DNA of 64,000 nucleotides from the NCBI RefSeq assembly GCF_900105475.1, contig NZ_LT629777.1, positions 4,030,001 to 4,094,000 of the forward strand, read 5' to 3'. Positions 16,794 through 39,445 of this stretch are shown one piece after another. Position 1 is the first letter of the stretch; every line of letters starts with the position of its first letter. Source of the DNA: Pseudomonas asplenii. Lineage in GTDB: Bacteria; Pseudomonadota; Gammaproteobacteria; Pseudomonadales; Pseudomonadaceae. A model generated the notes under the pieces. The model ran no database searches, was not told the DNA's origin, and saw only the letters and a list, made by a program, of their open reading frames with translations. The position numbers were made by a program, and so were the translations under genes.

Positions 16794-19232
16794 TTAGAAG
16801 TTATAGGTCGCTGTCAACCGGGTCGTACGCCCAGGCCGCACCCCGATATAGTTCGGCGTCGCCGTGTATGAGTAAAGCGTGCGGTCAAAGATGTTTTTGA
16901 CGCCCAGCGTCAGTGACCAGTCTTTCTGCCGGTAGAAAATCGACGCATCGGTCTGAGCCCCGCCGGGAAGGGAGAAGTAATTGAAGCCTGAAGCGTACCC
17001 GTTTATCGTGCTGCTGTAGGCATTCACGCCTATCCCTGCTCCCAAGCCTTTGAACGTGCCATCCAACAGCTCATAGGAGGTCCACACGCTGCCGGTGTGT
17101 TTTGGCTGGCCGATCGTTTGAGGAGAAGCGTTAAAAAGGGGGTTCCTTCCTGGTGGCGCTGCCGGTTGGTCGAAATCACTGTAGGTGTAGCTGGCATTGA
17201 TTGCCCAGCCCGGAAGAATTTCACCGGCCAGGTCAAGATCCACGCCCTTGGATTTAAGCCCTTGGGAACCGGTAGTTCGGCCGAACGGATCGGTGGTCGG
17301 CACGCCGGTTTCTTCCATTTGGAAAACGGCGCTGGTCAAGGTCAGGGCGTCGTCGTTGAACTTCACTTTTACCCCGGCCTCCTTTGAATCGCTTTGTCTA
17401 GGAGGCAGCGCCAGGCCTGTGACGTTGTCAGTCGTGTTGTTGGCCTGGAAACCTTTGTAATGGTTTGCATACACCGTTACATCGGGCGTGATGTCGTAAC
17501 TGATGCCGTAGCTCGGTACCCACTTGCTGTTCTTGAAATCCGTTGAAGAGGAAGTGCCACGTCTATTGGCCGGGTAGTCGGGCAAGTTGGGTATATAAAT
17601 AGTCGAATCGGCATCGTACAGAGTACGTCTCGCGACGAGCATGACGTGTGTTTTATCGCCAACCTTGACCAGGTCCTGCAGCAACAGTCCCTTTTGGGTC
17701 TGAAGGTAGTCCCCTGAGTGATAATAGTTGGGTGATGTGTAACTGAAATCAGGCAGGTCGAAATCGTGGCCCGCATTGAGGTTGCCACTGGCTGAAACCC
17801 GAGTTGAAGTATCAAACGCGGAGGTTTTGTAGTGTTGGTAGTCAAGCCCGGCTAGAAGTTTCTGTTCGATAACACCCGTCGTCAGCGTGTAAATAATATT
17901 ATTTTGAGTATTAAAGGAATCGGTGTTCGTTCCGGATTGTAAGCCTCTTGAGCGGATCAAGCCGTTCGGCCCATAAGGCGGTGCACCACCGGGTCCTCCC
18001 GGCTCCCATAGGTGAACCTGGTCTTCTTCACGGGTATAGGTCGCCTTGCTTTCAAACGTGAGGTTGCTTGTGAAGTTGTGACTGAACTCGTAATAACCGG
18101 TTTTGGTATTGCCGGTCACTCGGTCGTCCTTGCCGGTGATGCGGTAATTGGGAAGCTTTTGTATCTTGCCTTGGTAGAGGTACGTCGCAGCGCCTAGAGC
18201 GCCTCGCTGGCCTTGGAGTTCTGCGCCAATCGTCAGGCTGGTGTCGTCATCCTTCCAGCGTAATGCCGGAGCGATATAGTCGCGACGGCCGCCGTTGTAA
18301 TCCGGCTCGCTTTCGTTGGCACGCATGTGGACGATGTTGAGTCGATAACTGAACTGTTTGTCATCACTCAATGCGCCACCCAGATCCAGCGCTTGCTGAA
18401 ATTCGCCCTTGTCGGTCAAGTCCACGCGAAGTTGATGCAATGGCGTGGTTACCGGCGCTTTGCGGACCAGATTGATCGAGCCCGAAGAACCCGCGCTGCC
18501 GGTCATGATGGAGTCCGGGCCCTTGATGACTTCGACACGGTCCAACCCTTCGATTGGAGTAGTGCCGGCGCCAACGTCCGCCACACCATTGGTGCTGGTG
18601 TTCGCAACGGCGAAGCCCCGAATGAAGTAAGAATTGACCCCGCGGTTATTTTGCCAGGTGGTTACGCCCCCAGAGCTGCGTAATGCGTCCTCGAGAGAAG
18701 AGGCTTGGCGGTCGGTCAACAGTTTGTTACTGATTACCTGAACCGAGCGTGGGGTTTCCTGAATCGAGGTGTTGCCGCGCATCGCGCCAGTGGCACTGTT
18801 TGGATTGTAGACCTCTGCATCCTCGTTTTCGGTGCTGCTGCTCACGGTTATGCTGGGTAGTACGGCATCGTTATTGGCCGCCGCTGGCGCCGCAGCGGCT
18901 TGCGGAGCACGCTCAACGGTCAATGTCCCGTTGCTGGTGATACCCAGGCGCAGGTCAGTGCTGCGCAATGCCTGGGCGATGGCTTGTTCGGTGCTCAAGA
19001 GACCGGTAACTGCCGGCACGCGGTAAGCCTTGGCCAATGCCGGGTCGAAGGATATCGTTCTCCCGGTCTGTTGCCCGATCGCCAGGAGTGTCTGATCCAG
19101 CGAGCCCGCAGGAACGTTGAATTGAGCTACGGCCTCTTGCGCGGTTGCCGCCAGGACAACGTGCACCGGCGACAAGCCGGAAATCAGCGAAATAGCCAAA
19201 GCGAGTTTTGCCAACTTGCAGCTTGATGCCAT
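16794..19232 (-). CDS. TonB-dependent outer-membrane receptor with signalling (STN) domain, FpvA/FoxA type
   Basis: An 812-residue transducer. Signal peptide about 1-29 (LALAISLISGLSPVHVVLAA); secretin/TonB short N-terminal domain about 33-105 (FNVPAGSLDQTLLAIGQQTG ... LGITSNGTLTVERA), which contacts a FecR anti-sigma factor; plug about 150-270 (TPRSVQVISNKLLTDRQASS, then VEVIKGPDSIMTG); and a 22-strand barrel ending in aromatic Phe (TATYNF). The ATG at 19232 has GGAG before it. Annotation by family would be siderophore receptor, but its neighbours point to a peptide-like ligand. It is divergent from the ECF sigma/FecR pair. I see no Fur box in the 639-nt region between them. Confidence 0.93.
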   Translation of the reverse strand: MASSCKLAKLALAISLISGLSPVHVVLAATAQEAVAQFNVPAGSLDQTLLAIGQQTGRTISFDPALAKAYRVPAVTGLLSTEQAIAQALRSTDLRLGITSNGTLTVERAPQAAAAPAAANNDAVLPSITVSSSTENEDAEVYNPNSATGAMRGNTSIQETPRSVQVISNKLLTDRQASSLEDALRSSGGVTTWQNNRGVNSYFIRGFAVANTSTNGVADVGAGTTPIEGLDRVEVIKGPDSIMTGSAGSSGSINLVRKAPVTTPLHQLRVDLTDKGEFQQALDLGGALSDDKQFSYRLNIVHMRANESEPDYNGGRRDYIAPALRWKDDDTSLTIGAELQGQRGALGAATYLYQGKIQKLPNYRITGKDDRVTGNTKTGYYEFSHNFTSNLTFESKATYTREEDQVHLWEPGGPGGAPPYGPNGLIRSRGLQSGTNTDSFNTQNNIIYTLTTGVIEQKLLAGLDYQHYKTSAFDTSTRVSASGNLNAGHDFDLPDFSYTSPNYYHSGDYLQTQKGLLLQDLVKVGDKTHVMLVARRTLYDADSTIYIPNLPDYPANRRGTSSSTDFKNSKWVPSYGISYDITPDVTVYANHYKGFQANNTTDNVTGLALPPRQSDSKEAGVKVKFNDDALTLTSAVFQMEETGVPTTDPFGRTTGSQGLKSKGVDLDLAGEILPGWAINASYTYSDFDQPAAPPGRNPLFNASPQTIGQPKHTGSVWTSYELLDGTFKGLGAGIGVNAYSSTINGYASGFNYFSLPGGAQTDASIFYRQKDWSLTLGVKNIFDRTLYSYTATPNYIGVRPGRTTRLTATYNF

Positions 19233-19871
19233 ACGTTTGCGCTCCACCGTGTCCCCAGAAAACCAAAATGTTCGGTTACTGGTTCTGTGTGACGAGATGT
19301 CAAAAGCGTGAGAGGTCTGGCGAAAAAAATGTATTTTTTGGAAAGCAGGACCTGACCTGCAGTAGGCGATTGCCTCCCCCGGGGGCTCTAGCATGGGGGG
19401 GAGGGCTTACCTGAAACCAGTTGCCATCCCTGACGTATTCCGATGACCGGCTACTGATCTTTCGCGGGCTCGTTGAAGGGTTGAAGATCACAGCCGCTGC
19501 ATCTTGTTGATGAGGCTATCAGGGCGTCGGCAGGCAGCACCTCCCGGCAGTGGTGTTGCCGAGTAAATTTCCTACAACTGGGGTTTTTATCGCTTTCCCC
19601 AGGTGCATCTAGGTAACACTCGTCCAGTGCGCTGCATGAACAAGAGAAATTTTTGCAGTGCTGCTTTCTCTTTCGATCAATGATGGTGCGTTGCGGTTTT
19701 TTCCCGCTCCACTATAGCGCTCAATTATGACAACGCTGTGTATCCAGGGTGTTACCTGAACCTGCTGAGCTGTGTTGGCCCAAGACTTGCGTACGTGTGC
19801 CCCAACCGCTTGACCAAGTCGCCGGACCGTCTGTGTGAAGCGTATTCATTTGCAGTTGAACGGGTGCATTC
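19233..19871. other. Divergent control region between receptor and ECF sigma gene
   Basis: 639 bases with no gene. It should contain the promoters of the receptor and of the sigma/anti-sigma operon. No convincing Fur box (GATAAT-type repeats) or long inverted repeat could be recognised. A GC-rich CCCCCGGGGG palindrome lies near 19378. Confidence 0.5.
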
Positions 19872-20396
19872 ATGGCCGCCACTGACTCTCGCATTCGATC
19901 CGATTTACTGACTATGGTCTTTCGCAGTGACTATAGCTGGCTGACCTCGCGCTTGCGCTACAAGCTTGGCTGCCGATACAACGCCGAAGATGTCGCTTCC
20001 GAGGCATTCACCCAGTTGGCTGCAATGCCCACCCTGCAGGAAGTGAAAGAGCCGCGGGCGATGCTGACCACCATCGCCAACCGGGTCATGTATGAACTGT
20101 CGCGTCGTCGGGATCTGGAGCGAGCCTACATGGAGGCTCTGGCTCTGGCACCCGAGGCATGTCATCCTTCGCCGGAAGAGCAGCACTTGCTGATGGAGTC
20201 ACTGCTGGCCGTCGACAAGGCGCTGGAAGGGCTGTCGGTCAACGCCCGGAGCGCGTTCCTGTATAGCCAGCTCGATGGTTTGACCTACGCGCAAATTGGT
20301 GAACTGCTCGGAGTTTCGGCGGCTCGAGTTCGTCAATACATGGTCAAGGCACTGCGGTGCTGTTATGAGGCGGCTCGCCATGAGCAAGGCATCTAA
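19872..20396 (+). CDS. ECF sigma factor, FecI-like
   Basis: A 174-residue extracytoplasmic-function sigma factor. Region 2 is at residues about 12-75 (YSWLTSRLRYKLGCRYNAED, then ASEAFTQLA) and region 4 at about 110-165 (LEGLSVNARSAFLYSQLDGL, then YAQIGELLGVSAARVRQYM), with the FecI-type spacing and short length. It overlaps the anti-sigma gene by 17 bases and lies divergent from a receptor that has the signalling domain, the usual cell-surface-signalling trio. It probably directs RNA polymerase to the receptor promoter and perhaps to the downstream operon. Confidence 0.92.
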   Translation: MAATDSRIRSDLLTMVFRSDYSWLTSRLRYKLGCRYNAEDVASEAFTQLAAMPTLQEVKEPRAMLTTIANRVMYELSRRRDLERAYMEALALAPEACHPSPEEQHLLMESLLAVDKALEGLSVNARSAFLYSQLDGLTYAQIGELLGVSAARVRQYMVKALRCCYEAARHEQGI

Positions 20397-21342
20397 GAAA
20401 AGTACTGACGACGCAGCCGAACAGGCGATCGAGTGGATGGTGTTACTGCGTTCTGGTGAAGCCACACTCGACGATGAGCATGAGTTCGCCGCCTGGCGAG
20501 CCCGCAGTGCGGAACACGATCAGGCCTGTGCCTACATAGAGGCAACGCTGGGTCGGATTCCACTCAGGCTGGCGCCCACTCAGCATCAGGCGGTGCGTTC
20601 TACCTTGCTTGCACCCTCGCGCCGTCGTGAGTTCCTGCGCAATGCCCTGTGCGTGGCAGCAGTCGGCGTAGTGGGTGGGGCGCTGGTCGATAGAACCTAT
20701 CCGGTCGGCAACCTCCTCGCCGATCTTTCGACCCGCACTTCGGAGCGTCGGACCTTGACCTTGGGTGACGGCAGCTCGCTTACGCTCAATGCGCGCAGTG
20801 CGGTCAACATCGATATCGATGAGGTTCACGGCAAGCGCAAGATCAAATTGATGGAAGGGGAAATGTTGCTGCAGGCGGCTGCTTCCCGGCTACCCCTGAG
20901 TGTTCAGTTGGCAGGCGGCAGGGTGGAGCTGGGCAGTGGTCGGCTGTCCATCCGGCATCTGAATGATGGCTTCCGGGTGGCGGCCCTCACCGCGCCTGTG
21001 CAGGTGTGGGATGCGACCGGCAATTCGCGCTTGCTTGCCGTAGGGCAGGGGGCTTCGGTGGGGGCGAACGGCTTCAATGTCTTCCCGATCTCCGCCGTAG
21101 CCGAATGTAGCTGGACGCGGGGGCTGCTGGTGGTTGATGACCAGCCGCTGGCGACCGTAATCGAAGCCCTGCGTAACTATCGTACCGGCGTGGTGCGGCT
21201 GGATCCTCAAGCTGCTGTCATGCGGGTGAGTGGCATATTCCCGTTGGACGACAGCGACAATGCCATCGAATCAATAGCGCAAACCTTGCCGATCATCGTA
21301 CAGCGCACCACAGGTTTTTGGGTCAGCATCAGCGCTGCCTGA
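20380..21342 (+). CDS. FecR-family anti-sigma factor / signal transducer
   Basis: A 320-residue FecR protein: DUF4880 sigma-binding N-terminus (AEQAIEWMVLLRSGEATLDD), a membrane segment at about 86-104 preceded by a twin-arginine-like SRRREFLRNA, and a periplasmic FecR domain (RTLTLGDGSSLTLNARSAVN) with C-terminal STN-like contact region. It keeps the sigma factor inactive until the receptor binds its ligand. The start at 20380 inside the sigma gene has GAGG nine bases upstream; an alternative ATG lies at 20365. The twin-arginine segment agrees with Tat-dependent insertion known for other FecR-type proteins. Confidence 0.9.
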   Translation: MSKASKKSTDDAAEQAIEWMVLLRSGEATLDDEHEFAAWRARSAEHDQACAYIEATLGRIPLRLAPTQHQAVRSTLLAPSRRREFLRNALCVAAVGVVGGALVDRTYPVGNLLADLSTRTSERRTLTLGDGSSLTLNARSAVNIDIDEVHGKRKIKLMEGEMLLQAAASRLPLSVQLAGGRVELGSGRLSIRHLNDGFRVAALTAPVQVWDATGNSRLLAVGQGASVGANGFNVFPISAVAECSWTRGLLVVDDQPLATVIEALRNYRTGVVRLDPQAAVMRVSGIFPLDDSDNAIESIAQTLPIIVQRTTGFWVSISAA

Positions 21343-21519
21343 CGTCTGCATTTGCCTGCTCGTGTTTTCTCCTCCCTTGCTTGACTGACCAGAACCCCCG
21401 CCACGCCTGCCTTCACGGCAGCCCTGCAAAAAAAATCCAAAATAATCGCATTCGCCCCTCACGCTTTTACTTCCTCGTTGCACATAGGTAGTAAGAACAA
21501 CTGTTAGGCGATCACCATC
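21343..21519. promoter_or_regulatory. Possible internal promoter region before the import operon
   Basis: A 177-nt gap, the largest between fecI and the last gene of the locus. It holds an A-tract (GCAAAAAAAATCC near 21426) followed by AT-rich sequence, suggesting that a separate promoter may drive the STN-tonB operon. No consensus boxes are certain. Confidence 0.35.
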
Positions 21520-21897
21520 GTGCTGCGTTCCCTCCTTCCCAAGCGTCATTTTCGCTCTGCCCAGGCCGTGAGTCTGTCAGTACTGATGGCAGGAGGTTGT
21601 GGCAGCAGTATGGCTTGCAGCTTGACCGCCGAGCGAGACTACTCGATAGCTCGCGGCACCTTGAGCAACGCGCTGCTTGAAATCGGGCGTCTCAACGGGT
21701 GCTCGATCGTGTTTGATCCGGGTTTGATCAGCCAGATGCGCAGTGACGGCGTTCGCGGCCATTTCAGTGGCTACGACGTTGCGCGGATGCTCCTGCATGG
21801 CTCGGGGTTCGAGTTGGTGCTTACTGCCAACGGCACCCTGACCCTGCAGCCAGCGGATGTCCAGATCAAGCGTGCGAGTGCGGGGAGAGGCGTGTGA
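21520..21897 (+). CDS. Free-standing secretin/TonB short N-terminal (STN) domain protein
   Basis: A 125-residue protein. An N-terminal hydrophobic stretch (AVSLSVLMAGGCGSSMA) suggests export, and a GGC-type lipobox-like sequence (LMAGGC) could make it a lipoprotein. Residues about 38-110 are a single STN domain (YSIARGTLSNALLEIGRLNG ... FELVLTANGTLTLQP), the module that in receptors touches FecR. Here it stands alone, overlapping tonB by four bases. The start is a GTG without a clear ribosome site, so the exact N-terminus is uncertain. It may modulate signalling between receptor, FecR and TonB in the periplasm. This role is inference. Confidence 0.75.
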   Translation: MLRSLLPKRHFRSAQAVSLSVLMAGGCGSSMACSLTAERDYSIARGTLSNALLEIGRLNGCSIVFDPGLISQMRSDGVRGHFSGYDVARMLLHGSGFELVLTANGTLTLQPADVQIKRASAGRGV

Positions 21898-22730
21898 CCA
21901 ATATGAATGTGCGTGTAGAACAGATCCCTCGCGGGCGCGGCTGGGATGCCAGCCGAATTGGCGAGTTTGCCGAGCTGAAAAAAAGCCGCTTGCCTATCGT
22001 CACGGCGTTCAGTTTTGCAGTGCTGATTCATGTGGCGGCGCTGGCACTGCTGGTCACCCAGGTCAGCAAGCGAGAGTTGACGATGGACGCTTCCGCGCCG
22101 GTCACCAGTGTACGCGTGAGCCTGATCGCCATGCCGCCACCGCCGCCCGTGGTTGTGCCGCCACCGGTGGTCGAAGCTCCTGTTGCGCCGGAGCCCGCCG
22201 TGCTCACCAGTGAGTCGGCAACCCGTACGATAGAACAGGCGCCGCCCAAGCCCGAGGCCAAGCCAAAGGAAGTAAAACCCAAGCTCAAGCCCAAGCCTGT
22301 CATCAAGCCTGAACCGAAGAAAACGCCGCCTGTGGTCGAGCAAAAGCCGGTCGAGCCGAGCCCACGCACTGAAGCCAAGCCTGACCCGAATTCAACGCAG
22401 GCCCAGTCGGCACCTGTTGCGCAAAAGCTGATGGATCTGCCCTCCGCAGTGCCCAAGGACGTGCCTTCGGTAGGTTGCCGCGTGCCGGCGCCGGATTATC
22501 CGCGTAGAGCCCGGCGGCTACATGCCCAGGGACAAGTGCTGGTACGCCTGGAAATCAACCCTAAAGGACTGGTACAGCGCGCGGATGTCGTTCGCAGCAG
22601 TGGCAATGAAGACCTTGACGAGTCTGCGGTTACCGCCGTACGCGGCGCTGTTTGCAACCCTTATATGGAAGGCGGCCAAGCCATCTCGGTGCGCGCTGTG
22701 CAAACCGTTGACTTCAATTTGAGCAAATAA
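21894..22730 (+). CDS. tonB: TonB energy transducer
   Basis: A 278-residue TonB. It has a cytoplasmic N-terminus, one membrane helix at about 41-60 (VTAFSFAVLIHVAALALLV), a proline-rich periplasmic spacer with PPPPPVVVPPP and many KP/EP pairs (about 80-185), and the C-terminal TonB domain (YPRRARRLHAQGQVLVRLEI, then GNEDLDESAVTAV). GTG at 21894 overlaps the upstream stop as GTGA; ATG at 21903 is possible. With the next two genes it makes a private TonB-ExbB-ExbD motor for the nearby receptor. Confidence 0.93.
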   Translation: MTNMNVRVEQIPRGRGWDASRIGEFAELKKSRLPIVTAFSFAVLIHVAALALLVTQVSKRELTMDASAPVTSVRVSLIAMPPPPPVVVPPPVVEAPVAPEPAVLTSESATRTIEQAPPKPEAKPKEVKPKLKPKPVIKPEPKKTPPVVEQKPVEPSPRTEAKPDPNSTQAQSAPVAQKLMDLPSAVPKDVPSVGCRVPAPDYPRRARRLHAQGQVLVRLEINPKGLVQRADVVRSSGNEDLDESAVTAVRGAVCNPYMEGGQAISVRAVQTVDFNLSK

Positions 22731-22770
22731 CCGCTCGACGATGCTCGAGTGCCACAGAAGAGGATTGATC

Positions 22771-23523
22771 ATGCAAGAAATGGGATTGGCCTACGCTTGG
22801 CAAACAGCGGATATGGTGTCGAAAACCATCGCTTTCGTACTGCTGATCATGTCAGTACTGAGCTGGGGAGTGATGATCATCAAGGCTGGGCAGTTGATCA
22901 AGCTACGCAGCATGACGCGCCGCGCGGTGACATCGTTCTGGCGCGCCGAAAGCTTCGAAGAGGGTGTAAAGCAGCTCAATACCGGCCCCGGCAATCCCTT
23001 CGTCCATCTGGCCCAGGCCGGTGTTGCCGCTAATACTCACCAGCAGCAACAGAGCTCCCAGTTGAACAGCCGGTTCGACCTGAGTGACTGGTTGGCACGC
23101 TGCCTCAAGGATGTGGTGGAGGAGCATTTGTCGCGCTTGCAAATGGGCTTGGCAGTGCTGGCGTCGATTGGCAGCACCGCACCGTTCGTGGGGCTTTTTG
23201 GTACCGTGTGGGGTATTTACCACGCGCTCAAAGTGATAGGAACGTCGGGCGATGCATCCTTGGCCCAGGTCGCCGGTCCTGTGGGCGAATCGCTGATCAT
23301 GACGGCATTCGGTCTGTTCGTGGCCATCCCGGCCGTGCTGGGTTACAACGCGATTGCGCGTCGCAACAAAAGCGTCAGTCATGCGCTGGGGCGGTTCGCT
23401 CACGACCTGCACGCCTACTTCCTCACCGGCGCCCGCGTCAGCATTGCCGGCAATGCGGCACAGCCTGTCGCAGTACCTTCCGACAAGTGCTCGGACACTC
23501 TCGTCGAGAGGGCACGGGCATGA
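22771..23523 (+). CDS. exbB: ExbB-type proton channel subunit
   Basis: A 250-residue MotA/TolQ/ExbB protein with three membrane helices: about 13-35 (AFVLLIMSVLSWGVMIIKAG), about 125-150 (LAVLASIGSTAPFVGLFGTV, the conserved pore helix) and about 172-195 (MTAFGLFVAIPAVLGYNAIA). The start at 22771 has AGAGGAT before it and matches the family N-terminus, whereas an in-frame upstream start lacks this. It overlaps exbD by ATGA. Confidence 0.92.
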   Translation: MQEMGLAYAWQTADMVSKTIAFVLLIMSVLSWGVMIIKAGQLIKLRSMTRRAVTSFWRAESFEEGVKQLNTGPGNPFVHLAQAGVAANTHQQQQSSQLNSRFDLSDWLARCLKDVVEEHLSRLQMGLAVLASIGSTAPFVGLFGTVWGIYHALKVIGTSGDASLAQVAGPVGESLIMTAFGLFVAIPAVLGYNAIARRNKSVSHALGRFAHDLHAYFLTGARVSIAGNAAQPVAVPSDKCSDTLVERARA

Positions 23524-23942
23524 GCATGGGTGGCTCACAGTTCGATGCCGACGACGTGATGTCCGATATCAACATGACGCCGTTGATCGACGTCATGCTG
23601 GTGTTGTTGATCATCTTCATCATCACCCTTCCAGTCATCAACCACGCGGTGAAACTTGAGCTGCCCAAAGCCGACAGCCACGCGATGGAAAAGCAGCCAG
23701 ATGCGATCGATGTATCGATCACCGCCGACGGCCAGGTGCTGTGGAACAAGGAAGCGGTGGATGATGAGCAACTCAAACAACGTATCGCCGTGGCTGCGGT
23801 GCAGGACCCCGTGCCCAATGTTCGCCTGTTCGCCGACAAGGCAGTGCGCTACGAGCGGGTCGCCACCGTGTTATCCGCAGCACAAGGTGGCGGCCTGAGC
23901 AAAATCGACTTCGTGACTGAAGCCAAACCCGCAACTCCCTGA
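23520..23942 (+). CDS. exbD: ExbD-type proton channel subunit
   Basis: A 140-residue ExbD/TolR protein: a short cytoplasmic tail, one membrane helix at about 22-42 with the essential aspartate in PLIDVMLVLLIIFII, and a periplasmic domain. The ATG overlaps the exbB stop by four bases. Completes the TonB motor of this locus. The next gene follows after 16 nt. Confidence 0.92.
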   Translation: MSMGGSQFDADDVMSDINMTPLIDVMLVLLIIFIITLPVINHAVKLELPKADSHAMEKQPDAIDVSITADGQVLWNKEAVDDEQLKQRIAVAAVQDPVPNVRLFADKAVRYERVATVLSAAQGGGLSKIDFVTEAKPATP

Positions 23943-23958
23943 GTCCTTTGGTACCCCT

Positions 23959-25671: not shown

Positions 25672-27446
25672 GCGCTACCGAGCAAAGAACCGACAGCAGC
25701 GCACTGCGGCCGAGTATAGGTCGCCTGGTAATGGGGTTCTGGGTTTCAGAAGAGAAGTGGCTGGCCTACCTGTTGTTCGCCGTGTGCGTGAGCATTACCT
25801 TGGGCGGGGTGTATGTCGCCGTGTGGGCTAACAAAGCCGGTGGCAGCCTGGTCGATGCGCTGGTTGCACGGAACTGGGCAACGCTGTTTCCCGTGTTGGT
25901 GCTCAACTTTTTGTTGGCCTTGGCCACACCGGTATTGATGATCATCGGCTCGGTCTTCCGCCAGCTACTGGAGTTGCGTTGGCGGACTTGGCTGACCCGT
26001 CACTATGTAGAACGCTGGACGCAGGCCAACCATTTTTTCGAGCTTGAACGCGAGGGCATGCTGGGCAATGCCGATCAGCGTATCGCTCAGGATGTGGCCC
26101 AGTTCGTCGACATTACCCTCAACAATATTCTCAACATCATTCAAGTCGTGGTCAGCGCCGTGTCCTTCGGGGTGGTGCTCTGGGGACTTTCAGGTGAGTT
26201 GTCGTTCAGTGTATTCGGGCTGGCCTTGGCCATTCCCGGATACCTGCTATTGGCTGCTTTCGCATACACCTTTGGCCAACTGGCTGTGGTGCATTGGGCG
26301 GGCAAGTCGCTGATAGGCCTCAATAACCACAAGCAGACGGTTGAAGCCGAGTTTCGTTTCCTGGCAATGCGCTTGCGCGAAAACGCCGAGCAGATCGCTT
26401 TCTATCGTGGCGCAGAAACAGAAGGGCAGCGGCTATCGGGCGCATTCATGCGCGTGCGTAGCAACTGGGTGGCGATCATCAGGCGGACCTGCAGGCTGAT
26501 GTTCGCCCGTGACGCCTATTCCGAGGCATTCTCGCTGCTGCCTCTATTGCTTGCGGTACCGCGCTACATGAGCGGGGATATCAGCCTTGGCGACGTTGCG
26601 CGCATTCGAGGTGGTCTCGGCGGCCCTGCCGGCGGTGCGTTCGGCGCGATGACCGGCGTATTGAGCCTGTTCGTGCAGATATACCCGACCTTTACCCTGT
26701 GGTTGGCGCTGGTTAACCGGCTGCGGGACTTCAGCTGGGCAATTAACAAACTCGATGCGAAACCCAATGGCTTCAAGCTGCAGCGGGGCGGCTATCGATT
26801 GATTTGTCGCGATGTGCACCTGCTCAAACCTTTGGGCCAACCCTTGCTGCGGCTCAGGTCGCTCGAGATCAGCCAGGGTCAGCGCTGGCTGATCAAGGGC
26901 GCTTCCGGGCGCGGCAAAAGCACCCTGCTGCGCGCTATCGCCGGCCTGTGGCCACATGGCAGCGGGCTGATACGGACGCCGAGCCATTGGCAGGTGATGT
27001 TCGTTCCCCAGCGCAGCTATACGCCTACCGGCACGCTCAAGGCTGCACTCTGTTACCCCGCCGAAGCGGCTCAGTTCAGTGACGCGCAGTGCGAGCAGGC
27101 ACTGCGAGATTGTCGGCTGCCGCAATGCGCAGGGCTGCTACATGAAGAAGCTGCGTGGCACCGCAAGTTGTCCGGAGGTGAACAGCAGCGGCTGGCGTTT
27201 GCCCGGTTGCTACTGCAACGCCCGAACCTTGTGTTCCTCGATGAGGCCACCAGTGCGCTGGACGCTGAGACCGAAATCGCAGTTTACCGCCATGTGCTTG
27301 CTCAGTTGCCGGCCACCACGATCGTCAGTATCAGCCACAGACCCGCCCTGGACAGCCTGCACGAGCACGTACTCGATCTGGACGCGTCACCGCCGTTCTC
27401 ATTCAACCATCCGCAGCGTGAAGGCGCTTCTGGATATTCTTTCTGA
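25668..27446 (+). CDS. SbmA/BacA-like permease fused to ABC ATPase (2)
   Basis: A 592-residue paralogue of the preceding gene. The same membrane domain is seen (LRWRTWLT, MLGNADQRIAQDVAQF, LRENAEQIAFYRGAE), then an ATPase with Walker A GASGRGKST, signature LSGGEQQR and Walker B LVFLDEATSALD. The two proteins are related but clearly diverged, so they more likely form a heterodimer than duplicate functions. The unusual insertion RGGLGGPAGGAFGAMTGVL lies in the membrane domain, where the sister has a shorter loop. The ATG overlaps the previous stop. TldE follows after 13 nt. Confidence 0.88.
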   Translation: MSATEQRTDSSALRPSIGRLVMGFWVSEEKWLAYLLFAVCVSITLGGVYVAVWANKAGGSLVDALVARNWATLFPVLVLNFLLALATPVLMIIGSVFRQLLELRWRTWLTRHYVERWTQANHFFELEREGMLGNADQRIAQDVAQFVDITLNNILNIIQVVVSAVSFGVVLWGLSGELSFSVFGLALAIPGYLLLAAFAYTFGQLAVVHWAGKSLIGLNNHKQTVEAEFRFLAMRLRENAEQIAFYRGAETEGQRLSGAFMRVRSNWVAIIRRTCRLMFARDAYSEAFSLLPLLLAVPRYMSGDISLGDVARIRGGLGGPAGGAFGAMTGVLSLFVQIYPTFTLWLALVNRLRDFSWAINKLDAKPNGFKLQRGGYRLICRDVHLLKPLGQPLLRLRSLEISQGQRWLIKGASGRGKSTLLRAIAGLWPHGSGLIRTPSHWQVMFVPQRSYTPTGTLKAALCYPAEAAQFSDAQCEQALRDCRLPQCAGLLHEEAAWHRKLSGGEQQRLAFARLLLQRPNLVFLDEATSALDAETEIAVYRHVLAQLPATTIVSISHRPALDSLHEHVLDLDASPPFSFNHPQREGASGYSF

Positions 27447-27459
27447 ATCGGAGTTACCC

Positions 27460-28806
27460 ATGGATCATCAGTTCGCTTATACCGAGGAACAACTGGCAGA
27501 AGTGGCTCATGACTTGATCGCGCAGGCCCATGCGGCGGGTGCAAGCGATGTGAAGGTCTCGCTCTCGGAGATGGCCGGTCTGAGCGTCGAGGTCATGGGC
27601 GGCCGTGTGAACACGCGCTCGCAACATGCCAAGAGCGGGCTTTCTCTCACGGTTTTTCGCGGTGATCGGCAAGGCACCACGCATTCCACCGATTTCAGCG
27701 CGGGCAACCTGCAGCGCATGGTGGGTAAAGCGCTGGATATCGCCCGTTACACCAATGAGGACCGACACGCGGGGTTGGTGGATGGCGACGGGCTTAGCCG
27801 TTTTTACGCAGACCTCAAGCTCGACAACCCCTGGGACCTGAGTATCGATGAGGCGCTTGAACATGCCCATCGCGTCGAGGCCGGCATACGGGCGGTAGGC
27901 CGTGACGTGCGCAGTGACGGAGCCAGTGTGAGCACTTCGCGCTCGCAATTCCAGCTGGTCACGTCACGAGGATTTTGCCGGACGGCGACACGTACCGACC
28001 ACAACATTTCCGCGAGGGTAATTGCCAATCGTGACGGGCAAAACAAGCCGGACGCCTGGACTGATTATCAAGTTGCACCGCACCGCCTCCAGGCGCCGGA
28101 GGCAACGGGTGAGCGCGCTGCGCGATCTGCGCTTGAAGCCTTGGGCGGCTGCTCGATCAGTTCGCGCAGTTGTCCGGTGCTGTTCGCACCCAAAGCTGCC
28201 CATAGCCTCACTCAGCATTTTTTTCAGGCGGTAAACGGGGGCGAACTGTCGCGCGGTTCGAGCTTTCTACGTGGCAGCCTTGGCCAAGTGATTTTTGCCG
28301 AGCACATTGACGTGCTTGAGGACCCCTTCCTTGTCGGTGGCGCGGCCAGCGCCTGTTTCGACACCGATGGCGTAGTCGGGCAGCGTCGTGCCGTGGTCAA
28401 GCATGGCATGGTCAGCGGCTATTTTCTCAATGCCTACAGTGCCCGACGCCTGGGTATGGTCAGCACCGGCAATGCGCAGGGGGCGCACAATCTTACCCTC
28501 AAAAGCCGGCTGACGCGTCCCGAGGACGACCTGCCAGCCATGCTGCGCAAGCTGCATACAGGGCTTCTGGTCACCCACCTCATGGGCGATGGCGTACGCC
28601 TGGCCTCCGGTGATTATTCGCGCGCGGCCCAAGGCTTCTGGGTTGAAAACGGCCAGATACAGTTTCCGGTCGAGCAAATCACCATTGCCGGGCATCTGCG
28701 CGAGATGTTCGCCGGCATCGTCGCGGTGGGAAGCGACACCCTGACCCTGGGCAATATCAGCAGTGGCTCGGTCCTGATCGACCAACTGCGAATCGGCGGC
28801 CAATAA
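27460..28806 (+). CDS. TldE/PmbA-family subunit of the TldD/TldE protease
   Basis: A 448-residue PmbA/TldE protein, the same length as E. coli PmbA. Family segments are GLSVEVMGGRVNTRSQHAKS near residue 40, LFAPKAAHSLTQHFF (about 245), GSSFLRGSLGQ, and the C-terminal REMFAGIVAVGSDTLTLGNI. In E. coli the TldD/TldE heterodimer is a metalloprotease that trims the microcin B17 leader and degrades unstructured peptides; TldE lacks the metal site. An earlier in-frame start would overlap the ABC gene and is rejected. This is probably a second, dedicated copy, since pseudomonads also carry a housekeeping tldD-pmbA. Confidence 0.9.
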   Translation: MDHQFAYTEEQLAEVAHDLIAQAHAAGASDVKVSLSEMAGLSVEVMGGRVNTRSQHAKSGLSLTVFRGDRQGTTHSTDFSAGNLQRMVGKALDIARYTNEDRHAGLVDGDGLSRFYADLKLDNPWDLSIDEALEHAHRVEAGIRAVGRDVRSDGASVSTSRSQFQLVTSRGFCRTATRTDHNISARVIANRDGQNKPDAWTDYQVAPHRLQAPEATGERAARSALEALGGCSISSRSCPVLFAPKAAHSLTQHFFQAVNGGELSRGSSFLRGSLGQVIFAEHIDVLEDPFLVGGAASACFDTDGVVGQRRAVVKHGMVSGYFLNAYSARRLGMVSTGNAQGAHNLTLKSRLTRPEDDLPAMLRKLHTGLLVTHLMGDGVRLASGDYSRAAQGFWVENGQIQFPVEQITIAGHLREMFAGIVAVGSDTLTLGNISSGSVLIDQLRIGGQ

Positions 28807-28834
28807 CTTGCACATTCTGAACGGAGCGAACCCC

Positions 28835-29191
28835 ATGAGCGAATTGATTCAAGACCTGTCCCTAGCGACTTTCGATGCACAGGTGACTGATTCCGACCTG
28901 CCAGTGCTGGTGGATTTCTGGGCGCCCTGGTGCGGCCCGTGCAAGATGCTCGCGCCGGTCATCGACCAGTTGGCCGAAGAGTATGACGGCCGACTCAAGG
29001 TCATGAAATGCAATATGGACGAAGTCAACGCCCAGGACCCGGAGGCCGGCAAGGCACGTTTCCAGGTGGCGGGTATTCCCGCCCTGGTGATTTACCGGAA
29101 CGGCAAAGAGGTTACGCGGGCTGTCGGTGTGCAGTCGCGACTGCGGCTGCGCGGTTTTATCGATAAGGCGATTGCGGCCGACGCCGACTGA
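28835..29191 (+). CDS. Thioredoxin
   Basis: A 118-residue thioredoxin with the active site WCGPC at residues 32-36 and the cis-proline segment VAGIPALVIYRNG. It lacks a signal peptide, so it is cytoplasmic. It lies between tldE and tldD in the same transcript, which suggests it reduces a disulfide in the imported substrate or keeps a partner enzyme reduced. An upstream in-frame codon is ignored because the family starts at MSELIQDLS. Confidence 0.9.
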   Translation: MSELIQDLSLATFDAQVTDSDLPVLVDFWAPWCGPCKMLAPVIDQLAEEYDGRLKVMKCNMDEVNAQDPEAGKARFQVAGIPALVIYRNGKEVTRAVGVQSRLRLRGFIDKAIAADAD

Positions 29192-29227
29192 TCACCCACT
29201 TCCTTTGAGCGAGCTACCTGGGACATC

Positions 29228-30682
29228 ATGAACGCACCTCATACTCACATAAATAATCTGCAGGCCGCCAGGCAGCTGCTGCTCGAGCCCTATGGGCTGG
29301 ACGAGCGCAAGCTGGCGCGCGCCCTGGACGATGTCATGGCGCACCAGGTCGACTTTGCGGATTTGTATTTGCAGTCGGTCAAGCGAGAGCGCTGGTCTAT
29401 CGAAGACGGGCTGATCAAGTCTGGTTCGTTCAGTGTCGATCAGGGCTTTGGCCTGCGGGCGCTTGATCAGGACCAAAGTGCCTTTGCCTACTCCCAGCAG
29501 ATCAATGAGCGGTTCCTCATGGAGGCTGCACGTGCAGTGCGCACCATAGCGCCCCCCGGGGGGAAGCCGATTCAGGTCAACCTTCAGACTACGGCACCGC
29601 AGGCGCAGTATGCCAACGTTGATCCGATCGACTCTGTGGGCACCGATGCCAAGGTCGCAATCCTCAAAAACATCGACCGCATGGCCCGGGCCATGGACCC
29701 TCGGGTAGTCAACGTCTTCGCCATGATCGAGGTAGAGCAACAGACCGTCATGGTCATGCGCCACGATGGACGCCTGGCTGCCGATGTGCGACCGCTGGTC
29801 ATCGTGCAAATGAACGTGATGGTCGCCAACGGCAAGCAACGCGAAATGGCCAGTACCGGTCTCGGTGGGCGTTATGCGCTGGAGACGCTGGACGAAGCGA
29901 GCATAGGCGAGGAACTGCGCAAGCTGGTCGATGGCGCGTTGCTCAATCTTGATGCCATTCCCAGCCCGTCCGGCAGTATGCCGGTAGTGCTGGGGCCCGG
30001 TTGGACCGGCATTCTCCTGCATGAAGCCATGGGTCACGGGTTTGAAGGGGACTTCAATCGCCTGGGGACTTCCGCCTATAGCGGGCGCATGGGGGAGAGA
30101 GTGGCGCCCAAAGGCGTCAACGTGGTCGACGATGGCTCGCTGGTCGGCCATAGGGGCTCGCTGAATATCGACGATGAGGGCGAAGCAGGACAGTGCACGC
30201 CGCTGATCGAGGATGGGATCCTGTGCGGCTACATGCACGACAGCCTCAGCGCGCGGTTGATGAACATGGCGCCTACGGGCAACGGTCGACGCCAGTCATA
30301 TGCCCATTTGCCGATGCCTCGCATGACCAACACCTTCATGCGCAATGGCGAGTTGGTGCCAGAGGAAATCATCGCTTCAGTGAAACGTGGCCTTTACCTG
30401 GCCACTCCAGGCAGCGGCCAGGTCGATATCGTCAGCGGCCAATTCACTTTCCAAAGTGCGCTGGCCTACCTGATCGAAGACGGCAGGCTGGTTGCCCCCG
30501 TGCGCGGAGCCACCCTGACAGGCAACGGTCCGCAAACGCTCAGCCAAATCAGTATGGTCGGCAATGACCTGGCGCTGGACCCGGGCATGGCGGTCTGTGG
30601 GAAAAAAGGCCAGAGCGTACCGGTCAGCGTTGGGCAACCCACGTTGAAAATTGACAATCTTATCGTCGGAGGGACGGCCTGA
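29228..30682 (+). CDS. TldD-family metalloprotease subunit
   Basis: A 484-residue TldD protein with the zinc motif HEAMGH (HExxxH) at residues 265-270, in GILLHEAMGHGFEGD. The conserved C-terminal MAVCGKKGQSVPVSVGQPTL supplies the further cysteine ligand. It is the catalytic partner of the TldE encoded two genes upstream. In characterised systems the narrow chamber admits only unfolded or extended peptides. Here the pair could cleave an imported peptide or mature one made by the cell. The genes are separated only by thioredoxin. Confidence 0.93.
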   Translation: MNAPHTHINNLQAARQLLLEPYGLDERKLARALDDVMAHQVDFADLYLQSVKRERWSIEDGLIKSGSFSVDQGFGLRALDQDQSAFAYSQQINERFLMEAARAVRTIAPPGGKPIQVNLQTTAPQAQYANVDPIDSVGTDAKVAILKNIDRMARAMDPRVVNVFAMIEVEQQTVMVMRHDGRLAADVRPLVIVQMNVMVANGKQREMASTGLGGRYALETLDEASIGEELRKLVDGALLNLDAIPSPSGSMPVVLGPGWTGILLHEAMGHGFEGDFNRLGTSAYSGRMGERVAPKGVNVVDDGSLVGHRGSLNIDDEGEAGQCTPLIEDGILCGYMHDSLSARLMNMAPTGNGRRQSYAHLPMPRMTNTFMRNGELVPEEIIASVKRGLYLATPGSGQVDIVSGQFTFQSALAYLIEDGRLVAPVRGATLTGNGPQTLSQISMVGNDLALDPGMAVCGKKGQSVPVSVGQPTLKIDNLIVGGTA

Positions 30683-30705
30683 GCCGTCTCCTACAGGAGC
30701 CCCGC

Positions 30706-32469
30706 ATGTCTCTGGTCAACTACCGGCGCGAAGGCACACTCGCGCTGCTGCAACTGAATAACCCGCCTTTCAACGCCTTCAGCGAAACCTTGCTGGATGA
30801 TTTCGCTCGCTGCCTGGCACTTTATGAGCAGGACGGTGAGGCGCGACTGGCCGTCGTCCATGGACAAGGTGCGGATTTCTCGATCGGAGCCTTGGCCAAC
30901 GAATTGGGCTCGTTGTACAACAGCGACGCAACCAGGCCGCTGGTGGACGCGGTGGAGGCCTGCGCAAAACCGCTCATGGCCCTGATGCACGGTCATGTAC
31001 TGGGGGCGGGGCTGGAACTCGCGCTGGCGTGCCATTGGCGCGTGGCAACGGCGACCGCTCGAATCGGGGTTCCGGAAATCCACATAGGTCTGCCACCGGG
31101 AGCCGGCGCTACACAGCGCTTGCCACGGCTGATCGGGATTGAGCCAGCCTTGAATCTGTTGCTGGAGGGCACAATCATCACCGCCGAGCAGGCCGGAGAC
31201 CTCAAGCTGGTCGATAAGGTTCTGGAAAAGGATTGGTTGAGTGACTTCAAAGCGATCGCAGAATGGGCCGCGATGCTCGGAGCGCCTCAACAGACCCGCA
31301 ACCGCAGTGATCTGCTCGCGCAAACGCCGGAGGGCTTCTTCAGCGAATTCCGAGCCGCCAAACCCGCAGAATTCTTTGTATACAAAGGCAAGGCCGCCAT
31401 ATTGCAGGCGATGGAAGCTATCGACCCGGATGAGTTTGACAAGGGCTATGAGCTGGAGGAACGCCTTTACCTGGAGGTTGAGCAATCTGGCCAGAAGACG
31501 GCCTTGATGAACAGCTTCATGCACGACGAAGCTGCGGCGTGGCGTATGACAGGACGGCCCGACGAGCATGCGCCATCGATAGGCGCAGTGACGTTGACAG
31601 GAGCGCAGCTTCCGCTCGGCTGCAAGCAGAGTGTCGATGGATTGCAGGTGAGCTGGATCAAGCCTCATGAAATGCGCGCCCAGACATTGACCGCTCTGGA
31701 GGCAGCAGATGTATGGCTGGACTTCACCGAGGAGCCACAGGCAAATCGGTTGGAGACCTTCACCCGCTATTGTGCGGCCATGAAGCCGGGCGCGGTGATT
31801 GTTTATGCGATTCGCGAAGGGGAGAGCTTTGACCTGCGTCAGCTCCCCGAGCAGATACAAGGGCATGCGTTGTTGCCTGCTTTTGTCTATGGCACAGGCC
31901 CCAAGTCAATCCTGCAGTTCTGGGCTCGCGAGTCGAATCAATCCAGTCACGTCCAGTTGGCCGTGCATGGTGGGCGCGCCGTAGGGCTGGCGTGCATGCA
32001 TTCATCTGGACAGTGGATGTTGGGGCCAGAAATGAAGGCGGGTTGGACAACCGACTTCGATAGCCTCCTGCTCCAGGGGGTAAGCTCGGAATCCATCATG
32101 CGAGTGTGCCAAAGCTTCGGTCTGTCGCTGGAGGCCCTGCAATGGTCGCCGCAGGGCTCCCGCCAAACCACCGAGCTCGATTGCTCACTCGACGATAAAG
32201 ACGTGCTCGACGCCATTCTCTGCTCTATTGCCAATCAGGGCTGTTACCAGTTGGGCGCAGGGCTGGCGATGAATCCTGCGGATATCGATATGCTGATCAC
32301 CCGCGGCTATGGCTACCCACCTTACCAGTCTGGCCCCATGGCGCGCTGGGCGCAAAGCGTGCTGGCGCTGCATGACAACCTGGTGAAGTTGCAGGCGCAG
32401 TTTGGTGAAAGCTGGAAACCCGCGCCCATGCTTAAACGTTTGGCTAGCGGATTACGGGGCGTTTCCTGA
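30706..32469 (+). CDS. FadJ-like enoyl-CoA hydratase with degenerate dehydrogenase half
   Basis: A 587-residue protein. Residues 1-190 are a crotonase domain with both catalytic glutamates kept (GAGLELALACHWR and GVPEIHIGLPPGAGATQRLP). The C-terminal 85 residues match the second 3-hydroxyacyl-CoA dehydrogenase domain (NPADIDMLITRGYGYPPYQS, then KPAPMLKRLA). The central NAD-binding domain has lost its glycine motif: the segment near residue 290 reads IGAVTLTGAQLPLG instead of a GxGxxG fold. The total is about 130 residues shorter than FadJ/FadB. It may hydrate or isomerise an acyl-CoA, or a dehydro-amino acid of the peptide substrate, without oxidising it. It sits 23 nt after tldD. Role unknown. 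Confidence 0.8.
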   Translation: MSLVNYRREGTLALLQLNNPPFNAFSETLLDDFARCLALYEQDGEARLAVVHGQGADFSIGALANELGSLYNSDATRPLVDAVEACAKPLMALMHGHVLGAGLELALACHWRVATATARIGVPEIHIGLPPGAGATQRLPRLIGIEPALNLLLEGTIITAEQAGDLKLVDKVLEKDWLSDFKAIAEWAAMLGAPQQTRNRSDLLAQTPEGFFSEFRAAKPAEFFVYKGKAAILQAMEAIDPDEFDKGYELEERLYLEVEQSGQKTALMNSFMHDEAAAWRMTGRPDEHAPSIGAVTLTGAQLPLGCKQSVDGLQVSWIKPHEMRAQTLTALEAADVWLDFTEEPQANRLETFTRYCAAMKPGAVIVYAIREGESFDLRQLPEQIQGHALLPAFVYGTGPKSILQFWARESNQSSHVQLAVHGGRAVGLACMHSSGQWMLGPEMKAGWTTDFDSLLLQGVSSESIMRVCQSFGLSLEALQWSPQGSRQTTELDCSLDDKDVLDAILCSIANQGCYQLGAGLAMNPADIDMLITRGYGYPPYQSGPMARWAQSVLALHDNLVKLQAQFGESWKPAPMLKRLASGLRGVS

Positions 32470-32553
32470 GCCCCAGCGTCGCCGTTGCCTGATGATTCGA
32501 CTCCATGACGACCTCATCCAGCGTGTCTCGGGATTTACCTTGCGAGGGTCTCA

Positions 32554-33588
32554 ATGAACTTCACCTTGAATACGAAGCCGTCATTTTTAATGGACAATCT
32601 TCAATTCGAACATATCGTTTCAGCGACTCTGCTACACGTGCGTCAGGAGTTTCCGCACTCCCAAAGCCGCGTGTTCGAGTCTGCCGAAGACCTGCAGACA
32701 CCCAGTAGTGTGCACCCGATTTTCTATGGCAGTTTCGACTGGCATTCTTGTGTCCACAGTCACTGGCTGCTGCTTCATGCCTTGGAGCGAGCGCCACAAG
32801 GTCTGCAGGCGCGGCAGATTGAGCAGCATTTCAACAGCCACTTCACGAGTCCAAAGGTAGAGGCTGAGTGCGACTTCTTTCGTCGACCGGCCCAGGCAGG
32901 TTTTGAGCGCCCTTATGGATGGGTCTGGTTGCTCAAGCTCGTCGCTCAGCTCAAAGGATCGACCTTGCCCCAGGCGTCGCAGTGGCTTGCAAATCTGGAA
33001 CCTCTGGCCGAGTTGCTAGCCTCGCGACTAAAGAGCTATTTGCCAAAACTTGTTTACCCGATCCGCTCCGGACAACACAACAACACGGCCTTCGCGCTCT
33101 TGCTGGCGCTCGACTATGCGCAGGCCTTCAACGACATCGAGTTTGACCGGTTACTACAGACGCTGGCTCTCTCATACTTCAAGGAGGCTGTGGCTTGCCC
33201 AGAGCTTGAGCCGGGCGGTGAGGATTTTCTATCTCCCACCTGGCAGCAGGCCCTGCTGATGCAGCGGGTTCTGGTACCCGAAGAGTACCGTCAGTGGTTC
33301 TCGACATCTCTACTCGCACCGAGCGTTTCTGCGTCCAGCAGGCTTTTCATCCCTGTCCAGGTCAGTGACCGCACTGATGGTCGCCTGGCCCATTTGGACG
33401 GGCTGAACCTCAGTCGCGCCTGGTGTATGACCCGTATCTCCAAAAGCTTTGCTGTCGGCAGTGATGAGCATTGCCGACTGACCGAGTCGGCGGCGCAGCA
33501 TCTGCAGGCTAGCAGCGCGCACCTGCATGACCACTACATGGGCGAGCACTGGCTCGCTACCTTCCTGTTTTTGGCGCTTGATGCCTGA
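32554..33588 (+). CDS. DUF2891 family protein
   Basis: A 344-residue cytoplasmic protein of the DUF2891 family, recognised from HPIFYGSFDWHSCVHSHWLL (about residues 53-72), ERPYGWVWLLKL, IRSGQHNNTAFALLLALDYA and the C-terminal HYMGEHWLATFLFLAL. The fold predicted for the family is an all-helical (alpha/alpha) barrel of the glycoside-hydrolase-like type, but no activity is known. GAGG precedes the ATG. It follows the FadJ-like gene by 84 nt and is probably the last gene of the import operon; the next gene is on the other strand. Confidence 0.85.
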   Translation: MNFTLNTKPSFLMDNLQFEHIVSATLLHVRQEFPHSQSRVFESAEDLQTPSSVHPIFYGSFDWHSCVHSHWLLLHALERAPQGLQARQIEQHFNSHFTSPKVEAECDFFRRPAQAGFERPYGWVWLLKLVAQLKGSTLPQASQWLANLEPLAELLASRLKSYLPKLVYPIRSGQHNNTAFALLLALDYAQAFNDIEFDRLLQTLALSYFKEAVACPELEPGGEDFLSPTWQQALLMQRVLVPEEYRQWFSTSLLAPSVSASSRLFIPVQVSDRTDGRLAHLDGLNLSRAWCMTRISKSFAVGSDEHCRLTESAAQHLQASSAHLHDHYMGEHWLATFLFLALDA

Positions 33589-34763: not shown

Positions 34764-34805
34764 GGCTGTCTCCTGGGCCCGGCTACATAGGCGGGCCCTC
34801 ATGGT

Positions 34806-36934: not shown

Positions 36935-37003
36935 GATGGCTCTCCTTTTGTTGTTCTTCTCGGGCCGAGTCGCGGCATGAGGCCAGGCGCTCGGCGGGTG
37001 ATC

Positions 37004-39029: not shown

Positions 39030-39139
39030 AGCGAGAAGCCGCCGTCGACTGCGATTCCCAGCCCAATGCCGCAACCGGCACCGGTGACCAGGGCGACCTT
39101 ACCGGCCAGGGAGAATGGCGAAGCAACAGGAGCGGACAT
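39026..39139 (-). pseudogene. Internal-deletion remnant of a short-chain dehydrogenase
   Basis: A 37-codon frame from ATG 39139 to TGA 39026. Residues 11-28 read LAGKVALVTGAGCGIGLG, the cofactor-binding start of a short-chain dehydrogenase. The text then jumps directly to IAVDGGFSL, the usual last residues of such enzymes. About 200 codons are missing, but the frame, start and the ATGA coupling to acoX are intact. A complete short-chain dehydrogenase (acetoin reductase type) is the likely ancestor. The product cannot be active; the remnant may survive because it carries the ribosome entry for acoX. Confidence 0.85.
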
Positions 39140-39198
39140 GAGACACCTCTGATTGTTGTTGTGGGTGCGGGACGGCGTCCCGGTGTCAGCAGGGCAAT

Positions 39199-39214
39199 AG
39201 CAAGGGCAGTGCCA
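39199..39214 (-). promoter_or_regulatory. Sigma-54 promoter of the acetoin operon
   Basis: On the minus strand TGGCACTGCCCTTGCT fits the -24/-12 consensus TGGCAC-N5-TTGC almost perfectly. It lies about 60 nt upstream of the operon's first start codon and faces acoX-acoABC-bdh. AcoR, encoded divergently, is a sigma-54 activator. Confidence 0.85.
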
Positions 39215-39293
39215 GGGGCGCTTTCAAGGTGCCGAATGCGCCGGGCCAGAGCGGTTGGAGCCGTTTGACGACAACGTCCAGACCCACGTGGAA

Positions 39294-39353: not shown

Positions 39354-39445
39354 GCCGGGTACTGCCTGTTCGCAAGACTTGTCCGGGAGGCGAGGAGGGG
39401 CTTAAATGAGCGCGACAAGAACAATGAAACAGCCGTGGAGGCCCC

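Follow-up and report, generated by a model that had tools for sequence, protein, structure and literature searches.

Lasso-peptide isopeptidase clusters carry an extracytoplasmic function (ECF) sigma factor, FecR and a TonB receptor beside a peptide-cleaving enzyme, and FecI/FecR regulation is typical of siderophore-type receptors. Protease-associated import of the Fus type is described as a gene cluster in which a TonB-dependent receptor accompanies a protease and an inner-membrane transporter, and through which a polypeptide is imported and digested; the FusC/PqqL protease of the Fus/YddB-PqqL systems is given there as a periplasmic M16 enzyme (PMC6793856). BacA is reported to import cobalamin, bleomycin and the peptide Bac7 (PMC10960864). 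For E. coli TldD/E, processive trimming from the N-terminus is described, with entry restricted to unfolded chains (PMC5810440). Here, we analysed a locus of Pseudomonas asplenii that resembles each of these systems in part. It lies in a 64-kb stretch (the window; contig NZ_LT629777.1, positions 4,030,001 to 4,094,000) of a single-contig genome of 6.53 Mb (G000), and all coordinates given below without a prefix are window positions.

The locus encodes a TonB-dependent receptor with an N-terminal STN-like signalling region, a divergent ECF sigma factor and FecR-like protein, and an operon for a stand-alone STN-like protein, TonB, ExbB, ExbD, two permease-ATPases of the ATP-binding cassette (ABC) kind, TldE, thioredoxin, TldD, a FadJ-like protein and a DUF2891 protein. 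Gene identities were based on open reading frame (ORF) calls together with Pfam and NCBIfam scans. A first-pass annotation had claimed this gene set and order, and every gene that it named was found at its place and on its strand; the spacing claimed from the STN gene onward, -4 to +84 nt, was reproduced with the starts used here.

We read the locus as a ligand-induced peptide import-and-digest system, with a probability of about 0.68. The reading stands on gene content, conserved linkage, a shared promoter, a system-specific TldE lineage and conserved catalytic motifs. The system is real, self-regulated and of a known general kind, that is, cell-surface-signalled TonB import coupled to proteolysis. 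The recurrent linkage, the TldE clade and the shared promoter give good anatomical support to the earlier suggestion of a private route across both membranes with subsequent cleavage.

Recurrence of the gene set

A scan with an alignment of the first ABC protein over 84,980 species, with one genome per species, yielded 100 confirmed loci; the 80 best were retained. A TonB-dependent receptor was present in 32 of these 80. Peptidases (TldDE, S9, M3, M17, M24, M1 and M16C were sought, with exemplars checked against Pfam) occurred in 27 of the 32 receptor loci, a thioredoxin domain in 28 and a domain that we call YGD in 27, compared with one, two and one, respectively, of the 48 receptor-less loci; the sole peptidase case among the latter (L017) lies at a contig end.

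Receptor, ABC protein, TldD and TldE were found together in 14 of the 80 loci, 13 of which also had thioredoxin. The 14 loci belong to Pseudomonas syringae GR12-2, P. bohemica, P. cedrina, P. trivialis and P. rhizoryzae, to Pantoea ananatis, Brenneria roseae, Rahnella perminowiae, Biostraticola tofi and Acerihabitans arboris, and to two Rhodocyclaceae and two Burkholderia. Another Pseudomonas genome (G175) has the same order from the receptor to the FadJ-like gene, with no DUF2891 match and with different flanks, and megaplasmids of Burkholderia cenocepacia and Paraburkholderia caribensis also carry this type of locus. With the window, these make up the 18 TldDE loci considered below. Receptor, second ABC protein, TldD and TldE are present in all 18, TonB, ExbB, ExbD and thioredoxin each in 17, and YGD in 12.

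The first-pass annotation had set against its own proposal the case that the receptor and the ABC and Tld genes rarely occur together; the 14 loci, G175 and the two megaplasmids display the opposite, and the gene set is no chance neighbourhood. The FadJ-like gene occurs in 2/18 and DUF2891 in 3/18 loci. Features that set the window apart are its two ABC genes (shared with G175), a short thioredoxin lacking YGD, the FadJ-like gene and DUF2891.

TldD, TldE and thioredoxin

TldE (PmbA; about 27460..28806, plus strand; PF19289/PF19290/PF01523) is a system-specific paralogue. In a tree of 41 sequences, the 18 system copies were separated from 23 housekeeping copies with support of 100/99 and in 100% of bootstrap trees, and 0 of 500 shuffles were as low. 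The window copy reached 335 bits, short of the 438 set as the PmbA equivalog cut-off. Within the system clade, Pseudomonas sequences occupy three separate positions, one with G175, one beside Rhodocyclaceae and one beside Enterobacterales; this topology points to spread by horizontal transfer, and the system is probably mobile. Two of the sequences (L066 and L040) form long branches.

Among 398 Pseudomonas genomes, TldE was detected at E <= 1e-60 in 393, and two copies were present in six only. Five of these six have this type of locus, namely the window's own genome, G175 and those corresponding to L020, L027 and L007 (G031, G085 and G022, respectively). In the sixth (G293), two copies of equal score, both housekeeping-like, lie on contigs C11 and C17; the one that was fetched has no ABC neighbour, and this pair is perhaps a duplication or contamination. 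Eight whole genomes behind system loci were also searched, and each had exactly two TldEs.

TldD (29228..30682, plus strand) scored 551 bits against PRK10735 (cut-off 513) and has intact HEAMGH and CGKKGQ motifs, while the TldE beside it lacks HExxxH, as in TldD/TldE metallopeptidases. The HExxxH zinc motif was present in TldD, and absent from TldE, in 18/18 loci. In the Pseudomonas system TldDs of L016, L020 and L050, CGKxGQ reads SGKxGQ. The thioredoxin (about 28835..29191, plus strand; active site WCGPC) scored 104 bits against TIGR01068 (cut-off 97), and its CxxC was present in 17/18 loci.

No signal-peptide-like N-terminus was seen by simple hydropathy on the window's thioredoxin, TldE, TldD, FadJ-like or DUF2891 protein, and digestion should thus be cytosolic. 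Since TldD/E takes unfolded chains only, the neighbouring thioredoxin gains a natural role, which would be to open disulfides before trimming.

Promoter motif and surface signalling

By comparing the regions before the receptor gene and the STN/TonB operon in the window, G175, L016, L020 and L050, we identified a bipartite ECF-type motif, TCAC(GC)TTTT followed after nine bases by a TTGCAC-like box. In the window it precedes both the receptor gene (19286..19312, minus strand; CTCACGCTTTT-N5-CTCGTCACACA) and the operon from STN to DUF2891 (21458..21484, plus strand; CTCACGCTTTT-N5-CTCGTTGCACA). When up to three mismatches are allowed, the 6.53 Mb genome contains exactly two sites of the window version (control pattern, 0), for which the chance expectation within the window is 0.00. 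A loose pattern, written after the five loci had been seen, matched 11 of the 13 other TldDE loci and 3 of 66 control ABC loci (18 S9-type and similar, and 48 others), compared with 0 to 2 of 13 in 20 Markov replicates. A strict pattern, tightened after viewing the hits, gave 23 sites in 15 of the 18 TldDE loci, none in the 66 control loci and none in 20 Markov replicates. Across 16 genomes or records with the system, 21 of 26 motif sites were inside the locus (control pattern, 2). The ECF sigma factor of the locus would be the one that recognises this motif.

This shared promoter before receptor and target operon is a feature of FecIRA-type systems, as is the presence of an ECF sigma factor (FecI-like; 19872..20396, plus strand; PF08281, PF04542), FecR (about 20380..21342, plus strand, with the start set at an internal ATG; PF04773, PF16220) and an STN-bearing receptor in one locus. 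An ECF sigma factor was matched in 16/18 TldDE loci and FecR in 14/18. For the 14 TldD loci of the scan the ECF count is 12 (the exceptions being L018 and L066), compared with none of the 18 other receptor loci. Surface signalling by STN, FecR and FecI, as proposed from the first annotation, is usual in these loci but not universal: in L007 (P. syringae GR12-2) and L027 (P. bohemica), the sigma factor gene stands without FecR or STN matches.

The stand-alone STN-like protein (21520..21897, plus strand) was likewise confirmed as a gene, although its Pfam STN match (PF07660) is sub-threshold (14.6 versus 28.4 bits, E 0.029). It aligns to positions 6-108 of the NCBIfam FecA model, also far below cut-off, and is 29% identical to the N-terminal region of the G175 receptor. 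Its hydrophobic N-terminus (hydropathy) suggests that it is probably exported. The operon continues with a dedicated TonB (21894..22730; PF03544), ExbB (22741..23523; PF01618) and ExbD (about 23520..23942; PF02472), all on the plus strand.

The receptor (16794..19232, minus strand; PF00593, PF07715, TIGR01783) has a longest ORF of 16794-19394, but a start at 19232 (M55, signal-peptide-like) is likelier because the promoter falls inside that ORF. In its N-terminal region, residues 68-179 align to the corresponding part of the FecA model. The receptor passes the cut-off of the TIGR01783 siderophore-receptor subfamily (253.1 versus 223.5 bits), and its nearest solved relatives are FoxA/CntO, FhuA and FpvA; none of the 27 solved sequences matched carries a FusA or YddB label, in a search that sees names only. 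One explanation of these similarities, together with the FecI/FecR genes, is that a metal-bound modified peptide is imported for its metal, TldD/E and thioredoxin opening the carrier for release. However, no Fur-like box above background was detected in the divergent and pre-STN regions of the window, G175, L016, L020 or L050 (10-11 of 19 at most). For the window, a simple count against the Fur consensus gave a best match of 11/19 in the divergent region and one of 10/19 upstream of STN, and 98 of its 63,982 plus-strand 19-mers score 11 or more. Nor did Pfam scans of the operon genes show any family of siderophore reductases, esterases or periplasmic binding proteins, and the general peptidases M1, M3, M17 and M24 in several related loci suggest full digestion. 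Such a metallophore is unlikely, on balance. The missing Fur box, which the first-pass annotation had cited against a siderophore system, was confirmed, whereas the receptor itself belongs by sequence to the siderophore-receptor subfamily.

Transport across the inner membrane

If digestion takes place in the cytosol, the ligand must be carried intact over the inner membrane, and the ABC proteins are of the SbmA/BacA kind. Both the first (23959..25671, plus strand) and the second (25668..27446, plus strand) match PF06472, PF05992 and PF00005, those of the first over cut-off, and combine the ABC_membrane_2/SbmA_BacA transmembrane domain with a complete ATPase, as in SbmA/BacA/Rv1819c. The first is 91% identical to a protein labelled P. 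fluorescens, which suggests that the genome is of the P. fluorescens group. The second is the copy best resembled by most other loci; its nearest solved relative is 6tqe/6tqf (E 1.4e-77), which we take to be Rv1819c, and its Walker A and signature motifs were found in 18/18 TldDE loci. Another SbmA/BacA-type ABC protein is encoded elsewhere in the genome (G000:C1:584364-585293; PF05992, 123.7 bits).

Antimicrobial peptides enter cells through SbmA/BacA-type carriers, and several organisms with the locus (Pantoea, Brenneria and P. syringae) are presumably plant-associated. The locus might thus take up an antimicrobial peptide of host-plant or bacterial origin and destroy it in the cytosol, lowering its level around the cell, and the import of Bac7 by BacA (PMC10960864) would fit such detoxification. 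On the other hand, a dedicated TonB-powered outer-membrane route would be costly for a toxin, and a PADLOC scan of nine proteins gave no matches other than mad3 and mad8, which fall on the ATPase portions of the two ABC proteins. We regard this explanation as quite improbable, and the import-and-digest system would rather supply a nutrient (C, N, S or bound metal).

Peptidases and the YGD domain of related loci

The 18 receptor loci without TldD/E have an S9 peptidase in ten cases, an M16C (PreP-like) protease in two, M3 alone in one (L075) and none of the peptidases sought in five; several add M3, M17 or M24. The S9 enzymes are of the prolyl-oligopeptidase family, in loci with receptor, ABC protein and thioredoxin/YGD (L004, L005, L006, L008-L010, L012, L019, L022 and L082). 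The M16C proteases (L081:14004-16949 and L013:2687-5713) also lie in receptor-ABC-thioredoxin-YGD loci, and it is possible that these two form a bridge to Fus-type systems. Additional peptidases occur beside TldDE too: M1 in L023, L030 and L126, M24 in the first two of these, and M3 and M17 in P. cedrina and P. trivialis. S9 and TldD never share a locus in this set (0/14), and we read the loci as one import core with exchangeable digestion parts; it is as if digestion modules were interchangeable on this core, the cytosol being the putative site of action of M1, M3, M17, M24, S9 and M16C.

YGD is an undescribed all-helical domain of about 295 residues (exemplar L016:12029-12925), with homologues in L050, L015, L021, L023, L006 and others. 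It follows thioredoxin in 12 TldDE loci (weakly in a 13th, L040); elsewhere it forms a protein of its own or, in several loci, the part ahead of a fused S9 peptidase. Matches to Pfam and NCBIfam families did not rise above noise. Its AF2 model is confident (pLDDT 93.9, pTM 0.90), and no Foldseek match was obtained for it at E <= 0.001. YGD was not detected in the window's genome, where a thioredoxin-YGD query matched only thioredoxin-sized stretches.

Proposed function

In the system that we favour, an extracellular peptide-like ligand would bind the receptor, whose STN region would act via FecR to free the ECF sigma factor. The latter would then act on two private promoters, those of the receptor gene and of the operon STN-TonB-ExbBD-ABC-TldE-Trx-TldD. 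The dedicated TonB-ExbB-ExbD would power passage through the outer membrane, and one or both SbmA/BacA-type ABC proteins would move the still-intact ligand into the cytosol. There, thioredoxin would reduce its disulfides and unfold it, TldD/E would trim it from the N-terminus, and ordinary peptidases would complete the breakdown.

Several observations count against this reading or narrow it. The association of receptor and peptidases (Fisher p 3e-15) is uncorrected for relatedness and rests on peptidase exemplars drawn from receptor loci, and 5 of the 32 receptor loci (L011, L014, L024, L026 and one more) have none of the peptidases sought. The window's thioredoxin lacks the YGD domain found in 12/18 loci, and no thioredoxin was found in L066. 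The Cys zinc-ligand motif of TldD is intact in 13/18 loci, reads Ser in 3/18 and was not found by pattern in 2/18, and TldD/E relatives may have other activities, e.g. as N-deacetylases. As the receptor scores as a siderophore receptor, there is room for a metal-bound peptide as the ligand. FecR was matched neither in L018 and L066, which are short or cut contigs, nor in L007 and L027; these last two are apparently complete and have the ECF gene and the promoter motif, with no FecR or STN match, and their regulation may differ from that of other TldDE loci. Finally, BacA-type ABC proteins can also export, as reported in PMC10960864, and those of the locus may run in either direction.

Transport both ways (PMC10960864) would also suit a biosynthetic role, in which TldD/E matures a local ribosomally synthesized and post-translationally modified peptide (RiPP), as it does microcin B17 (PMC5810440), the ABC proteins export it, and the receptor re-imports it as an autoinducer. 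This is very hard to reconcile with the locus: none of the scanned genes in the stretch 11041-37978 encodes a RiPP modification enzyme (very small ORFs were outside this assessment), the gaps of -4 to 84 nt leave little space for a precursor gene inside the operon, and the promoter occurs at just two genomic places. We consider it the least probable of the explanations.

More broadly, and with somewhat less than even confidence, we suggest that the import-and-digest loci represent an undescribed class of TonB-dependent systems that swallow their ligand whole and digest it inside. Such a class would have a receptor-ABC-thioredoxin core, often with YGD, and interchangeable peptidases (TldD/E, S9 or M16C, with M1, M3, M17 and M24 as helpers); its TldD/E branch would have passed by horizontal transfer among Pseudomonas, Enterobacterales, Burkholderiaceae and Rhodocyclaceae, and it would let bacteria eat intact disulfide-bearing peptides that normally are signals or weapons. 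No description of the present variant was found in the literature searched. If the proposal is true, Gram-negative bacteria have a dedicated, ligand-sensing route for intact peptides through both membranes into the cytosol. This would give SbmA/BacA-type carriers a use other than accidental antibiotic entry, and extra TldD/E copies one other than microcin maturation, and the route could bring peptide drugs into such cells. The private promoter offers an immediate reporter for finding the ligand.

Accessory and neighbouring genes

The protein encoded at 30706..32469 (plus strand; PF00378), an accessory found only in the window and G175 among the TldDE loci, had been called FadJ-like, and this identity applies to its recognisable crotonase half only. 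By alignment, the 3-hydroxyacyl-CoA dehydrogenase half is degenerate, and the NAD-binding glycine loop is absent from 8/8 close family members including that of the window. The window protein has both crotonase glutamates, one of which reads Asp in one relative. DUF2891 (32554..33588, plus strand; PF11199), with 8ieu/8iev as a solved relative, is a second accessory, shared with Pantoea (L015) and P. rhizoryzae (L050). The further idea that these two proteins alter the ligand is weak, given their rarity and the lost NAD loop.

Directly right of the operon lies an acetoin/butanediol-type dehydrogenase cluster (33678-41329) comprising an alcohol dehydrogenase, a lipoyl-domain hydrolase, E1 beta, E1 alpha and a sigma-54 activator. 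On the left, beyond an AraC gene, a protein of 446 amino acids (13792-15132) had no Pfam match; relatives at 65-66% were detected in 3 of 28 other genomes searched. A DabA inorganic-carbon transporter subunit (PF10070) is encoded near the left end (5114-7612).

Comparison with known systems

The locus shares with lasso-peptide isopeptidase clusters a receptor and ECF/FecR genes adjoining a peptide-cleaving enzyme, but no lasso genes are among the window genes scanned. It shares with FecIRA the STN-bearing receptor, FecR, ECF sigma factor, divergent order and shared ECF-type promoters; it differs in the added stand-alone STN-like protein, in the whole import-digest operon under the shared promoter and in that no Fur-like box was found. 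Like SbmA/BacA/Rv1819c, its ABC proteins have PF06472/PF05992 with a fused ATPase and 6tqe as the nearest solved structure, whereas here two tandem copies stand inside a TonB/TldDE operon. The domains and zinc motif are those of the microcin-maturing peptidase TldD/TldE (PmbA), although the window's TldE belongs to a separate, system-linked clade (335 bits, under the cut-off of 438).

The likeness to Fus is one of plan: receptor, protease and inner-membrane transporter genes are clustered, which in the present case would serve import and digestion. Neither Pfam analysis of the operon genes nor a search for HxxEH-type motifs in all window frames of at least 300 codons revealed an M16 protease. 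In place of a periplasmic M16 enzyme, the window has TldD/E and a thioredoxin without export signals, and it differs further in having a transducer receptor of the siderophore type as well as TonB-ExbBD and ECF/FecR of its own.

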